Assembly (NCBI GenBank): GCA_034687125.1
Contig: JAQGBZ010000001.1
Span: 124,001-188,000, forward strand
Direction of reading: 5' to 3'
DNA: 64,000 nucleotides
DNA from: Neelides folsomi
Taxonomy: Eukaryota > Arthropoda > Collembola > Neelipleona > Neelidae
The notes under the pieces are model-generated. The model made no database searches. It had not been told where the DNA came from and saw only the letters and a program-made list of their open reading frames with translations. A program made the position numbers and the translations under genes. Positions 5,459 through 41,790 of this stretch are shown piece by piece; positions within the stretch are counted from its first letter, which is position 1, and each line of letters starts with the position of its first letter.

Positions 5459-6910
5459 TCAACTTTTTTTATAATATTGAACGAGTAGAATGAAACGAGT
5501 AGAACGAAATGAGTAGAATCTTAACATAAATTGCCACGAAAGAACTTGATAATTTTTAATGAGCCTTTGTCGTTCCTCAAACGTGAGGATTTCCGGAGTT
5601 TTATTTTGTTTACTATCAGCAATCAACAGAGCTTTCAAAATGTCATCCCAATTCAAATCATTTGATGATAATGTTAAGAACCATTGAGGAGGACCAAAAT
5701 TTTTAACCATCGCCATTAATTCACTGCAATGCTGTTTGCCAATAAGCTTTTGTTCTTCTTATTCCTTTCATGTTGAGATGGACGTTGTCAATTAAATTAT
5801 CAGGCATGCTGTCGTTTTGTTTCAATCGGCAACAAGTACCAACGTTTTGTTGCTCTATGTGATATTCAACAACAGAAAGGGCATAGAAGAGATATTCATT
5901 GCTTTTGAATCTTTTGTCTGCTCTCATTATTCTCATCTGGTAATAATCTAATGGAGTTATTGGGATTTTTCGTTGGGAAATAAATAATAAAAAGCCAATT
6001 CTTCTTTTTTTTTCCTTTGACGCATTGGTTAAACTCATGGTGTTTCTCCTCAATGAATAAACTGGGATTTGATCTTCATTTGATTTTTGGACTACAGTTG
6101 ATAACTTGGGGATCTTCACGTTAATCGGGCAAAGAACTGATGATTGTAGATTGAGGTCAAGTAATTCATGAATGGACTCAAGCAGATTTTTTAAAACACG
6201 CCATAAATTATTTCATTGGGAAAACAATTTTTGAATAATAGAATTTGTGAATATGATTGGCGTAGTTGAAAACATGTCATTTTCAGGTGTTGTAATTTTT
6301 TAAAATTAATTTTGTCATTGATATAATTGATTCATTTCATTAAAAATGCAGTTCCATCAGGTACACATCGTCCATTTTTGTTTCTTAAATGTGGGTCAAA
6401 TAACCAATAATGTGATTCTGTTTGATTTCGTACGGATAAATTATTTACAATTAAGATTCCTTGCAAATTTGAAACCATAATGTTCAAATCGTCCTTCTAG
6501 TTTGATCATCCTTACAAAAGGCACAACTCTTGAAATTAATTTAAGTTCAATTTCAGTGAGGCATTTAATCTTAAAGAAATTTCTTGTAATTCGTTGTCAT
6601 TCCAAAATGCTTGTGAGGGATTCTTGCCTTTCTTTAATAAATGATGATTCAAGATGTAATTGTTAGAATTTTGCTTATAGATTCAGGAATAAGATTCCCT
6701 TTTACAGATTTCAGAAACGTATTCAGCATATTGAATAATTTCTGGTTGAAATTTTTGAAAAAAATTTATTTCTCGTAATGAATTGTTCCTTTTTTATTGG
6801 TAATCAGTCTTAATGTCCTTTCCTTTGTTTCCATTTCACGCTGTTCTTTTTTCTTTAATGCATCATTTTTAAGCTTTCGTTCTCTAACTTCATTGGTTTC
6901 AAGTTATTTC
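5459..6910 (-). pseudogene. decayed Helitron Rep/helicase N-terminal region
   Basis: Reading the minus strand: around 6805-6902 a Lys/Glu-rich stretch (ETNEVRERKLKNDALKKKEQ); around 6453-6567 LTEIELKLISRVVPFVRMIK, matching the LTxVExxLIxxVxPxMxxxRL signature that precedes the Rep domain in animal Helitrons; 6119-5721 with YYQMRIMRADKRF, EYLFYALSVVEY and RTKAYWQTAL; and 5716-5459 with MVKNFGPPQWFLTLSSND and LTFEERQRLIKN. The last two form one Helitron-like N domain broken by a +1 frameshift at about 5719-5723. There are several in-frame stops upstream. The catalytic Rep tyrosines and the helicase are absent, so the copy is truncated and dead. No Helitron ends were identified. Confidence 0.82.
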
Positions 6911-12900: not shown

Positions 12901-13427
12901 AAGGGCTTAAATCGAATGGTAGGAAAGACTCCCAGGACGCACGAATGTGAAACCTAACGATTACCGCAGCAATTCTAATTCCAAACAGGGATAACTTTAT
13001 TGAAAATGAATGAATGTATGATAAGGATTTGGTGATTTATTATAATGTAGCTTTAAATTAAATTAATACTGCTGCTTGTTGGAATTGTCTTGTAACTTTT
13101 ATTTTATTAAACAAAGTAGCGAAATGATATATTATTTAAAATCCAGATCTGAAAACGTTTGAAAGCATTAGGAAACATTCGTATAATTCATCACCAATTA
13201 CAGAGACAATTACTAAATAACAAGTAAAAATATTCACGTACAATTTAGTGTAAGTATTAAATTTAAATCATAATCCTCTACGGAATAAGTAAACATTTGG
13301 AAGCATTAAAGGGACTCTCAATTCATCATCAGTAAAGAAACATGTATTTGTAAAAAAGTGATTAAAAGCCGGTGTGGGTTCAAGTAACAGATATTTCTAA
13401 ATTGGCTACTAATCATCATACCTGACA
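6911..13427. other. no gene recognised
   Basis: Between the Helitron relic and the unknown three-exon gene. Only short, domain-free open frames are present, often overlapping on both strands (for example around 7.5-9.2 kb and 11.0-11.4 kb). Some segments (about 7.6-8.3 kb and 8.7-9.1 kb) are somewhat richer in G and C and could be regulatory. Confidence 0.55.
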
Positions 13428-13586
13428 TTAAAGCTCCCTCTTTCTGATTACCATCAAATTTGTATTAAATTCGTTTAGTGATGCAATTAATATGTGTTGA
13501 AAGGGGCAGTTTAAAACGAGGAGACTTTGTTTCTCCATGACCGTATTGAAAGTTTGTGAAAAGGCATCTCCTTCGTACACCTTTAC
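13428..13586 (-). CDS. unknown gene, last exon
   Basis: 52 codons from VKVYEGDAFSQ to IRKREL and a TAA, after a strong acceptor with a pyrimidine tract. A second possible donor (TTGATG|GTAATC) near the end would allow a further exon, which I could not find. Confidence 0.5.
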   Translation of the reverse strand, partial: VKVYEGDAFSQTFNTVMEKQSLLVLNCPFQHILIASLNEFNTNLMVIRKREL

Positions 13587-14298
13587 CTAGAAAAATTAAT
13601 AATTAATTGTAAGTTTTACAAATCTGAATAGAGTAGGTATGTACATATATGTATATCGTATATGTAATATATACTTAATGTTAGTACGCACTGTGTCCAT
13701 ATTTATTTATATATCGTACAATTAATAATATATAAATACTTATAATATAATATGAAGTAAATTATTTAATAATTGTTTTCGCTTACGACTAGCGCCCATC
13801 TGTTGTGATTAACCCTGTCAGCTTCTTTGAATATAGAAATTTTTGGTTTTCCACCTATTCGGAAATTGAAAAGACCGAAAAGTCCGTATTCCCCACTGTT
13901 AGATAAACCATTTTCCCTAAAATTAAACGGTTCGAAGTTCGAATTAGATCGATAATTTATAATATCAAAATAAATTCCAGTATACATAATGTACTTCTTA
14001 TTTAACGATTTAATTTATAAATGTAGATCAATTTTTACCACTGCAGAAATTCGTGTTGGGCAAATGACGTATCTGCAAATTCTCTGATCTCGAGGACACC
14101 TCCGGTAATACATTGGAACTGGTTACTAAGTGATTCGTTGGCCATAGTTGAATGATTTAGATTTTTCCGTGGTTTCTTAGAGTAAAACTGTTTGAAGTAG
14201 ATTGTTTCACCTTGAGCATCATTCCCTTTCTTAAAACTCATTTTCATATTCAAATTAGCCAAAATAGTTGATATTTGAAAATTCATGTTCACTACCAT
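13428..14298 (-). CDS. uncharacterised three-exon gene (182 aa as modelled)
   Basis: Minus-strand exons 14298-14039, 13916-13787 and 13586-13428 join to 549 nt. Intron 1 (14038-13917) is CAGTG|GTAAAA ... TTTAATTTTAG|GG in phase 2; intron 2 (13786-13587) is CTAGTC|GTAAGC ... TTTTTCTAG|GTAAAG in phase 0. Both junctions keep the frame. The product has segments ITGGVLEIREFADTSFAQHE, ENGLSNSGEYGLFGLFNFRI, EADRVNHNRWALV, VKVYEGDAFSQTFNTVMEKQ and NCPFQHILIASLNEFNT, then IRKREL and TAA. No signal peptide, membrane helix or known domain was recognised; it looks like a mixed alpha/beta soluble protein. The first exon frame is open further upstream to about 14378, next to a possible acceptor (TTTATTAG), so the true start may lie in an upstream exon. 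It could also be a gene relic, but there is no internal stop. Confidence 0.55.
13787..13916 (-). CDS. unknown gene, middle exon
   Basis: Completes the split Trp codon and adds 43 codons from ENGLSNSGEYG to NRWALV. It is flanked by TTTAATTTTAG and by GTAAGC. Confidence 0.55.
14039..14298 (-). CDS. unknown gene, first modelled exon
   Basis: Starts at the first in-frame ATG (MVVNMNFQISTILANLNMKM) and ends ...AQHEFLQ plus the first two bases of a Trp codon before GTAAAA. If an upstream exon exists, this exon would extend to 14378. Confidence 0.5.
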
Positions 14299-14378
14299 GA
14301 TTTTCCTGGTCTGTTCTTTTATCTTATCTACACAATATTCAAAATTTAAATGAGTCAAATGCGAAGTTCGTTGAGAAG

Positions 14379-17300
14379 CTAATAAATTATGTATTTACAC
14401 ACCTAATATGTATAATCTACAGCGAGGGGATGACAACCCAAGTCGAACTGATTTGGGAGCAATTTTAACCTCTTAGCATATATAATATATATTACAAGTA
14501 TGTTGACACTGGACTGACAATGAGCCTAGACTGAATTGGACTTTTTGGTATTATTTATATGGTATACTTATGTGCAAGAAAGGGTTAAGGGATACTGGAA
14601 AATCCCGGCTTAAATTGGCCTTCATTTTGACCTGCTTCTTTCGATATTAGTACCCAAAGTGTTCATTTAAGTTCAAATTTATTATTTTTTCAACACTCCT
14701 CAATGGATATTTTAAATTGAAATTTGGGGAAATCTATTACGGTCACATTTTTTGTGCTTTATTTACAATTCATTTCCTAATAAATAATGGTCCACAGTAC
14801 ATACATATTATGCATAGGTACTAAGGTATATGTATACATAATATTGTGTATTATTTTGTCTATTAGTGCATAGGTAAATAGGTAGTGCAAATGGCTAATT
14901 TTTTGGGATTTTTAAATGTTGGTAATGTTTAAAATAATTTTCACTAACATATTTTCATGAAGTACAAATTGCATAATTTGGTATGTAAAAACGGCTAAGA
15001 AATGCTATATTTAAATGTTTTGTAACACACTTTATGTACTTAAATAGCGTTTCATAAGCCGAATGTTTTTTAGACTTTATTTCATCTGAATATACAAATA
15101 ATGCATTTAAATCGTAAGGAATGCAAAAGAGGATAAAACAAAGAAGCCCACTTTATTCAAATCGGCTCATAGAACAAATGTGAGAGAACTAAAAGGAAGA
15201 AAGCGAGGAGTTTGGTCTGAAAGAGATAGGAAAGTTTTCTCGTTGGAGTGTTGAATAATTGAAGACTCATGGCCACACCCCTTCCCAAACTTCCAAGATG
15301 CGATGAATACCAAACACACAAGAGAGCCTATAGCTCCTCACAAATACAACCTCATTATATTCCTTTTACAGAGACGCCAACAAATCTCTGAACATTTCAC
15401 TCTCAAAGGATGAACTTTTTTCACCTCGTGTGTGTGGACCACGTAGTCACCGTAATTTTCATCTCTCGACATCGTGCAGTTGTTCATCTCAATTTTGAAT
15501 TCTTCGCCTAATGCAATGCATACTGAATCAGAATTAAAGCTCTTGGAATTAATTCATGCTAAACTCTTTTCATTTCCTCGTATAAAACCTAGGTATAACA
15601 CTTTTCTCTGCAAGTTTCTGAAAACATTCAAAACCATGTGCGAGCCCGAAACATAATAAAAAGCTAATAAATTTTACATTTTTTATAAAGGTTCAAAAAG
15701 TAGTAGTACAGATAGTTGCTTAATCCTACTAAACACATACAGGTAGATAGGTAAGTGTTCATGGTAAGACGAGTGGGTGAAACGTGAAATTGGATGAAGG
15801 GAGACACACTTTAAAAGATTCTGATATGATCATTGATTTTTATACAACGGCATTAAATTTTATTTAGAAAAAAATTAAAATACGCAATATAGGATAAGAT
15901 AGTCGATAGTTCTAGTAGGTACATTATTGTTAGTATGGATGAGCATGTAATATACTTATTTCTAGTCGGCCCATCATCTATCATTTTGGGAGAAGAATGA
16001 AGGAGATGAATAATGAGTCGATAGTGGAAGCCTAAAGTGGATCATATTTTAGATGCAGGGAAGAAAAAGATAAGAATGGGCATTTGGGATTTGGATCTTT
16101 TGTGAAGATCCATTTGAATGGGATAGACGCTCATTCTTCTCTCGATGAGTTCCGAGGAAGATGATAGATAGGACGGGAAAGGTAAATGGTCGGAGTAATC
16201 ATAATAATAAAGTGGAGGAATAATGGGATTCACACGGGAGAAGTTCAATTTCTCCGAATGACAAATGAATTGTCTTTGATATGATGATGGGTGTGTTCGA
16301 GGTGGCGAGGCCGAGTGGCAATACTCAGGAAATGGAACTTAAATGACTTTCGACGAAGAAAACCCTAAAAAACACATACAGTTATATAAAATATAAATAT
16401 AATACACTCAATTTAATATGTTTTCAACTTTAAGATAATATCATATGGATAAGTACAAAATGGGCAATAATAAGTATTAGTGGAGTGTGTGTAATATATT
16501 ATGTATATCTTGTGTGTATATGATATAATATAAGGTCCCTGCACCATAGGTGGGTTTTTTATTCAGGCAGGAGCAGATGAAAAATTGCCCAATTGGAAAA
16601 TATATTTTTTTCCAGCGAGCTTCGATCGTTCTCCTTGGTTTTGTCTCTGCGTGGTGCATTTCCCTACTTCCCTCCGCTGTCTTGTCCCTTCAAAAATGAG
16701 AAAAAATAATGGTGCGGAATTCTGTACCCTTCTCCCCTCCCTTTTTCTGGACAACTCCGGAGTCACTTACGGCCAGAGTGTATTAAGAAGGACAAGTGAG
16801 GTAAATAGTTTTAAAAAGTTAACTTAATCGATATCTCCTTCAGATACTCGTACAGATTCTCGTTCCTACAATGTTCCTGGTACACCTTTCTACATGTCGT
16901 GAGAATTTTGTCAAGATTTGGTCAGAAGATATATTTATCTCTTCGTTGTTGGGGGCGCGGGCACAACCCGGAATTATTATTTGTACAGAGACATTACCAA
17001 ACATACACACTAAAAAAGTAACACATCCTCGGCATTGGGGTCTATATGATGTAATATATGAGATACTTTTCCTATTTGGGGTTCTAAGTGGATGTAAAAT
17101 GGGCTTAAACTCGTAATACGGAAAAGAATTGTAATACGCGTACACATTCCATTTGTATGTTTTGTGTGTATATTTGAAGCCTATCCCACTCGAGGCTTTT
17201 CTCTTACCAGATAAAAATCACCGAAAATTTTTACAAGTGAAAAAGACGGTTTTTACACCGATTCCCCACTGTGATTTATTTATACATGAGAATGAGAAGG

Positions 17301-23279: not shown

Positions 23280-24535
23280 GTATAATCTTAAATTCATACG
23301 GCGATTAAGATGGAAGAGGAAGTGGGGAGAAACCTCACGGTGAGATGTTTTAATAGTCGGGGTGTGAAACCCAGAGAGGGAATCTCTCCATAATGTGGGA
23401 ATGGGTTAAAAGTGACAATGGGCACTGGAGGTGGTAAACACCACTTCTCTGTGGGAAGAATTGACATGGAATTGCCGCTGGAGTGTCAATTGGCCCTGGA
23501 GGAGATTCCAAACCACATCAACCGAGCAGCAGCAGAGACGCAACAGCGAAGCAACAGAGAAGCAGCAGAGAACTCAATGACCCAACAGAGAACTCAGCGA
23601 ATCTCCAGCGGGATGTGTCAATAACCGCTGCGTGTGGTAAGAACCAGCAGCTCGGAGGATCGCTGGAGCGTTCATGGGGCCATGATCGTAGTTTGATTGT
23701 CTTTCCAAGATAACCCGGGAGGCCCCGACGCTGTGGAGCCCCCGAACATCATCATCATCCGCGGAGGGTGCTAAGGAGTGAATGAGCATGGGGCGGATTT
23801 GGAGTGGGCCGGCGACCCGCTGGCCATCTTCCCCAGGGGCGGGCCAGTTTCCGGAGGTCAGATTATAGCCATAGCAGGGGGCACGGCAGCGACCCACTGC
23901 TGGAGCGGGTTGGGCAGGGAGCCCTGGTGGTTGGAGGTGCAGATGGCCCAATGGAGACCGCGTCCCTCTGCGGTTGACGCTGTGCTCACCCAATGGAGGC
24001 GAGAGTCTTGGGGCGCAAAGGCGGATCTACGGAGGATCTCGGGGAGTTGGGAGGACGGTGGAACGGTGGGGGATGGAGGCTGGGCTTTTCCTCGGATTTC
24101 ACCTCTCCTCCGCTCCCAGTGTGGCTCCACATTGAGGCTCAGCGAGAGGCAATTTTGTTGGCCCGGTTCTGAAGGAGGGAACACTTCAAGGGGTCACTTC
24201 ACCTCCCCTGTTCAAAGGGATCAAAGAGTGACTCGAGCAGGAGTCAAGTACCACTCCACTCACAGGCCCCAAGGAACAACCACCACCAAGGGTCAGCTCA
24301 CTTTTGCTCAACACGCCCCGAGTAATTACCATGCTCCCCGGGAGAACCCGAGACCCTTAGCCCATTTACAACTTTAAAACAAGTCCTGTGGATTTTAATC
24401 CAATTGACGAACACACCTCTCACTCGTGTCACCAATATGAATTACAATTTACAACCCTTAACTTAATTTTTGTGAAGTGTTTTCTTTTGCTGTGATAGTG
24501 CAAGATCCCAATTGAGAAGACAAACAACTTGAAAG
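23280..24535 (+). promoter_or_regulatory. GC-richer island: candidate opa promoter and 5' leader exon
   Basis: About 23290-24400 is visibly richer in G and C than the rest of the window and carries overlapping open frames on both strands (for example + 23778-24377, - 23574-23993, - 23858-24184). None of them shows a domain I recognise, and simultaneous opening in both strands is what GC-rich, stop-poor sequence produces. It lies 1.4-2.6 kb upstream of the opa start codon. A leader exon could end at the donor at 24535. Alternatively, one of these frames could be a real exon of an unknown gene. Confidence 0.5.
23522..23602 (+). repeat. CAGCAG / AACAGAGAA-rich imperfect repeat
   Basis: A purine/CAG-rich run with several imperfect copies of GCAACAGAGAA and CAGAGAACTCA, inside the GC-richer island upstream of opa. 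It may be leader or promoter low-complexity sequence. Confidence 0.6.

Positions 24536-25901: not shown

Positions 25902-41790
<15,889 letters not shown>

Follow-up and report, generated by a model that had tools for sequence, protein, structure and literature searches.

A predicted orphan gene in a springtail genome and its diverged paralogue on the same contig

Genes without recognisable relatives are reported in large numbers from springtail transcriptomes. In a study on the transcriptomes of two species, 30.1% and 43.6% of the sequences are reported to be without a BLAST hit (PMC4468109). A gene of this kind would be ordinary in a springtail, because many transcripts there lack BLAST hits. 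A second body of work, on insects, deals with the control of induced genes. GATA and NF-kB sites mark infection-induced genes in Drosophila, with an odds ratio of 16.2 for the two together (PMC9147463), and the promoter of a moth moricin needs both an NF-kB and a GATA site (PMC5457402).

Both lines of work provide a background for the locus described here. It lies within a 64,000-nucleotide stretch of the Neelides folsomi genome, which we refer to as the window, where a first-pass annotation had proposed an undescribed spliced gene on the minus strand. Can a gene model that was read by eye and resembles no known family be confirmed from a single assembly? In the present case it can, through a diverged paralogue, by drawing on its intron phases, its codon pattern and the blocks of sequence that both copies keep upstream.

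Gene model and paralogue

The predicted gene consists of three exons that join into 182 codons and a stop (Table 1). Its three segments, the two GT-AG introns with their lengths and phases, and the clean stop are all as the first-pass annotation had described them. The proposed span, which reached up to 14378, stands in part: the frame is indeed open upstream of the ATG at 14298, as far as a stop upstream of 14378, but the coding start is placed at the first ATG, at 14298, and nothing in the sequence shows that the segment from 14378 down to this ATG is coding. A second in-frame ATG at 14286 occupies the same aligned place as an ATG of the paralogue, and a product that starts there would be 178 aa long.

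Table 1 Features of the predicted gene and its upstream region, in window positions.
Feature	Position	Strand	Details
block A	14580..14634	(-)	CAGGTCAAA ... GGGATTTTCC ... TTAACCCTT; blastn E 0.23
kappaB-like site	14597..14606	(-)	GGGATTTTCC (paralogue GGGAATTTCC); in block A
block C	14433..14450	(-)	18 bp, CAGTTCGACTTGGGTTGT (paralogue CAGTTGGGCTTGGGTTGT); blastn E 2.8, weak alone
block B	14313..14368	(-)	TGACTCATTT ... TTTGAATATTGTG ... GATAAGATAA; blastn E 0.23
AP-1-like site	14351..14357	(-)	TGACTCA; inside block B
GATA-like site	14322..14329	(-)	AGATAAGA; inside block B
coding exon 1	14039..14298	(-)	from first ATG at 14298; donor TGCAGTG/GTAAAA
intron 1	13917..14038	(-)	122 bp, GT-AG, phase 2; the paralogue's 112-bp counterpart is not conserved in sequence
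coding exon 2	13787..13916	(-)	ENGLSNSGEYGLFGLFNFRI...
intron 2	13587..13786	(-)	200 bp, GT-AG, phase 0; not conserved against the paralogue's 122-bp intron
coding exon 3	13428..13586	(-)	VKVYEGDAFSQTFNTVMEKQ...; stop TAA
candidate polyadenylation signal	13103..13108	(-)	AATAAA, about 320 bp beyond the stop; seen by reading

The case for this gene is carried by a second copy on its own contig, at a distance of about 158 kb. Here three exons, ordered as in the window gene (G000:C1:296786-297060, 297173-297299 and 297422-297571, plus strand; span 296786-297571), encode a product of 183 aa. The introns between them, of 112 and 122 bp, are in phase 2 and phase 0 and fall at the same protein positions as those of the window gene, the aligned junctions (marked by a slash) reading HEFLQW/ENG against HTFQLR/ENA and RWALV/VKVY against NWILL/IKGY. 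The splice sites of the paralogue were chosen with the window gene in view; its three ordered matches were found in the raw DNA before any gene model was drawn.

When the 182-aa protein was compared with all six frames of the assembly (75.1 Mb, 840 contigs), the matches were the three exons of the gene itself and two weak ones elsewhere. One of these, at E 0.63, is the paralogue locus, where closer reading revealed three matches of 34.3, 32.3 and 31.6 bits within 3.1 kb; the best single match there was 24.6 bits for 500 shuffled queries and 19.6 bits for the reversed query. The other (G000:C115, E 1.5) was rejected as a relative, having one internal stop and no ordered matches to exons 2 and 3. 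When the paralogue protein was searched back against the assembly only the two loci were returned, and with either protein as the query no convincing third locus was found in the 75 Mb. The paralogue query used in this back-search and in the viral and prokaryotic scans mentioned below was 184 aa long, as it carried a surplus V where exons 2 and 3 join, while the family, PDB and BLASTP comparisons were made with the correct 183-aa protein. Judged by this assembly, the predicted gene is a member of a two-member family and not a singleton. Two diverged loci are all that the searches returned, and multiplicity of the kind seen with transposons or repeats was not found.

A segmental duplication was also considered and set aside. 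Among 315 open reading frames of at least 55 aa in the window, a single one, the frame of exon 2, had a match at E 0.001 in the 29.9 kb that surround the paralogue; one weaker match between the window and the paralogue surroundings, at E 0.002 in a separate comparison, was disregarded. What the compared neighbourhoods share is the gene and its upstream blocks alone.

Coding constraint and the predicted protein

The window protein and its paralogue find each other at a BLASTP E value of 2e-24, and their Smith-Waterman score of 210 compares with a maximum of 58 among 2000 shuffles. Over 174 aligned codons they share 61 identical residues, that is, 35% protein identity, and they differ at 84 first, 61 second and 114 third codon positions. 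Among the codons with a single difference 27 of 58 are synonymous, against 12.4 expected. The estimates for dN and dS are 0.66 and 2.73, with dS near saturation, and pN/pS amounts to 0.60 (0.49–0.73 in 1000 resamplings). In the two shifted frames, a stop occurs in 22 and 16 of the codon pairs. For the introns, the score of the alignment to the paralogue was reached in 64 (intron 1) and 69 (intron 2) of 500 letter shuffles, and the 300 bp downstream align no better than shuffles, 483 out of 500 reaching the score. Read from the codons, this means that the protein sequence has been conserved for most of the period since the two copies separated, a constraint that, with two sequences only, is not divisible between the window copy and the paralogue.

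The first-pass annotation had reasoned that two in-phase junctions were unlikely to arise by chance. This argument is weak alone; that the model is no product of chance was settled by the paralogue, whose identical intron positions and phases, codon-wise conservation and non-conserved introns bear out the claim of a spliced protein-coding gene. A chance chain of open segments with no gene behind it might be suspected of any model originally picked by eye, yet it is barely conceivable beside a paralogue of identical exon structure and beside the coding pattern. Since the genome has another, diverged copy whose introns sit at the same places and which shares sequence upstream, we take the predicted three-exon gene to be almost certainly real.

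Could the window copy have been silenced recently, so that it is now a pseudogene and the copy at 297 kb does the work? The comparison has one intact relative only, which leaves some room for this idea, but the window copy has neither stop nor frameshift, its splice sites and frame are intact, and with dS near saturation a long-unconstrained copy would have lost its frame. We therefore hold silencing to be very improbable. Frame-breaking indels, named in the first-pass annotation as a sign against the gene, were looked for in the paralogue, the sole relative compared; its frame is intact. Likewise, no broken frame or splice site was found in either copy.

The two copies would encode proteins with 182 and 183 residues, each near 21 kDa in mass. 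A simple hydropathy scan detected no strongly hydrophobic N-terminal core of the sort that a signal peptide would have in either protein, a result that an undetected upstream exon could alter. It also gave no membrane span, the largest 19-residue hydropathy values being 1.18 and 0.81. Conservation is strongest at about residues 55–178 and includes Cys63 as well as the stretches AD.SF..H.F, FG.F.FR..G.KPK..IFK and N..N.NL.VI. These residues probably form one compact domain to which all three exons contribute.

That the protein belongs to no known family, as proposed in the first-pass annotation, agrees with the profile searches, which gave no convincing match in Pfam, NCBIfam or the PDB. NCBIfam returned no match. 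M60-like_N from Pfam (E 0.19, window protein only) and three PDB profile matches (best E 0.15 and 0.14 in two runs, the latter with a two-row profile) were taken as chance. Two peptide patterns yielded 133 pattern matches in viral contigs and 162 in bacterial and archaeal contigs, none of which was confirmed. PHROG family 6245, of unknown function, matches residues 1–75 of the window protein at E 5.8e-4 with the whole protein and 1.2e-4 with exon 1 alone. The paralogue differs in having no such match, a tblastn search of 50,697 phage records returned nothing better than E 2, and the relation was set down to chance.

The same searches bear on the idea that the pair is a fast-evolving branch of an old and widespread family that has moved past sequence detection, an idea that overlaps the other readings discussed here. 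At the identity seen between these paralogues on one contig relatives would fade fast, sequence searches miss such relatives, and to the eye the final 120 residues alternate in hydrophobicity in a way that suggests many strands. On the other hand, the two-row profile brought no convincing match, and a crude propensity scan gave strand and helix mixed, with no clear beta pattern. On balance, we consider an old family improbable.

Surroundings of the two copies

In the window the gene is located between a broken Helitron stretch (5.4–6.2 kb) and a C2H2 zinc-finger gene on the opposite strand. The family scan of these surroundings covered 10 open reading frames. Helitron_like_N (PF14214, E 3e-10) was found at 5462–5758 on the minus strand, within a remnant at 5459–6212 in which the element is broken. 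A frame at 5724–6212 overlaps the Helitron_like_N frame in another phase and is without a Pfam match; presumably it is the upstream part of the same Helitron. The zinc-finger gene (zf-C2H2_15, E 1.2e-22) has two recognised exons that lie far apart on the plus strand, 27725–28087 and 41119–41790, the second of which contains a polyglutamine run. Pfam gives C2H2 fingers, and we take the gene to be Zic/odd-paired-like. At 23574–24377 a long open frame of 150 aa on the minus strand overlaps one of 200 aa on the plus strand; they lie in a 2-kb step that is among the richer of the window in G+C (0.41). Neither a tRNA nor an Rfam match was detected in the window, the repeats near the gene, at 12–16 kb, are short and imperfect only, and no tandem array was found at 10–18 kb.

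About 9 kb before the paralogue there is an open frame of 417 aa on the minus strand, rich in Gly, Ala and Gln (L020 5467-6717), which resembles the tail of a transcription or RNA-binding protein. Elsewhere in the assembly, a mitochondrial contig carries COX1 (G000:C742:3610-4950, E 2.7e-126) of springtail-like appearance, and its further frames are presumably ND2, COX2, ATP6, COX3, ND3 and ND1.

Upstream blocks and comparison with known systems

The likeness between the two copies extends beyond their exons. For the 102 bp before the ATG the score of the alignment to the paralogue was reached in none of 500 shuffles, and the same holds for the preceding 300 bp (0 of 500). The match consists of three collinear blocks within 340 bp, in the order A, C, B. 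Their E values come from a free blastn comparison of 8 kb with 9.9 kb, in which an unrelated A+T-rich pair scores better (E 0.005), and a global alignment of the upstream regions places block A together, but not blocks C and B. Given such weak E values, the blocks are credible because of their order, their place and the shuffle test. In the assembly, the second half of block A, taken as a 27-position pattern with at most three mismatches, was found at the two loci only among the matches listed; the exact pair of cores of block B was found, again among the matches listed, only at the window gene and the paralogue. Reversed control patterns of both blocks gave no matches.

Blocks A and B contain sequences that we take to be Rel-, AP-1- and GATA-like, going by the consensus sequences for these factors, and that were picked after the blocks had been seen. 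GGGAWTTTCC occurs once in the 64 kb, at the site in block A (0.69 expected; at least one in 53 of 100 shuffles), while the looser GGGRNWYYCC occurs eight times (6.62 expected) and the GATA-like AGATAAGA seven times (4.17 expected). TGACTCA is found 13 times in the whole window against 7.26 expected, a number reached in 3 of 100 shuffles. Since these counts are near expectation, or above it in the case of TGACTCA, what is notable is conservation, not motif presence. The kappaB-like and GATA-like sites are proximal upstream sites kept in the paralogue, each near chance frequency singly, and the spacing of the motifs is unequal between the two copies.

What might such blocks do? A Rel-domain exon is present in the assembly (E 1.3e-14). 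In the mechanism that we propose, a Rel/NF-kB factor would act with GATA and AP-1 factors to switch on both genes, induction would take place in defence or stress tissue, and the protein, an inducible factor of defence or stress, would have an intracellular role. This is a guess from the motifs only, and we put it forward as a tentative reading that may well be wrong. It would count against this reading if block C held the transcription start, as the transcript would then include both the AP-1 and the GATA site.

A plainer account is that the pair is real and its product constitutive or tissue-specific, for example in cuticle, gut or germ line, the blocks being an ordinary core promoter whose resemblance to known motifs is accidental. 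The near-chance rate of the kappaB-like and GATA-like sites would fit this, as would the excess of TGACTCA throughout the window, the lack of a signal peptide in the simple scan, and the fact that the blocks are common by descent to two copies only. It is less easily reconciled with the kappaB-like ten-mer, which fits the consensus in the window gene and the paralogue alike although its central base has changed, and which sits in a conserved region, whereas the introns are not conserved. To this plainer account we give an even chance.

If the reading as an inducible promoter is true, a new inducible defence gene family would have been found in the lineage of Neelides folsomi. The full proposal, a new intracellular defence family under Rel, AP-1 and GATA control, with a new domain, particular to its lineage and duplicated together with its control region, is distinctly unlikely.

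How, then, does the locus compare with what has been described? Classical immune effectors are secreted. The window gene, unlike insect immune-induced genes, has no signal peptide that we could see. With these genes it has in common a kappaB-like and a GATA-like site, here no more than about 310 bp ahead of the first ATG. The described moricin sites are 2 bp apart, those of the window copy about 270 bp. The pair also resembles orphan duplicate genes, a common kind; the gene pair itself is new and sound. Like them, the window gene is short, spliced, without a detectable family and part of a small family in one genome, its restriction to a lineage being putative. The pair differs from them in that an upstream region is conserved besides the exons.
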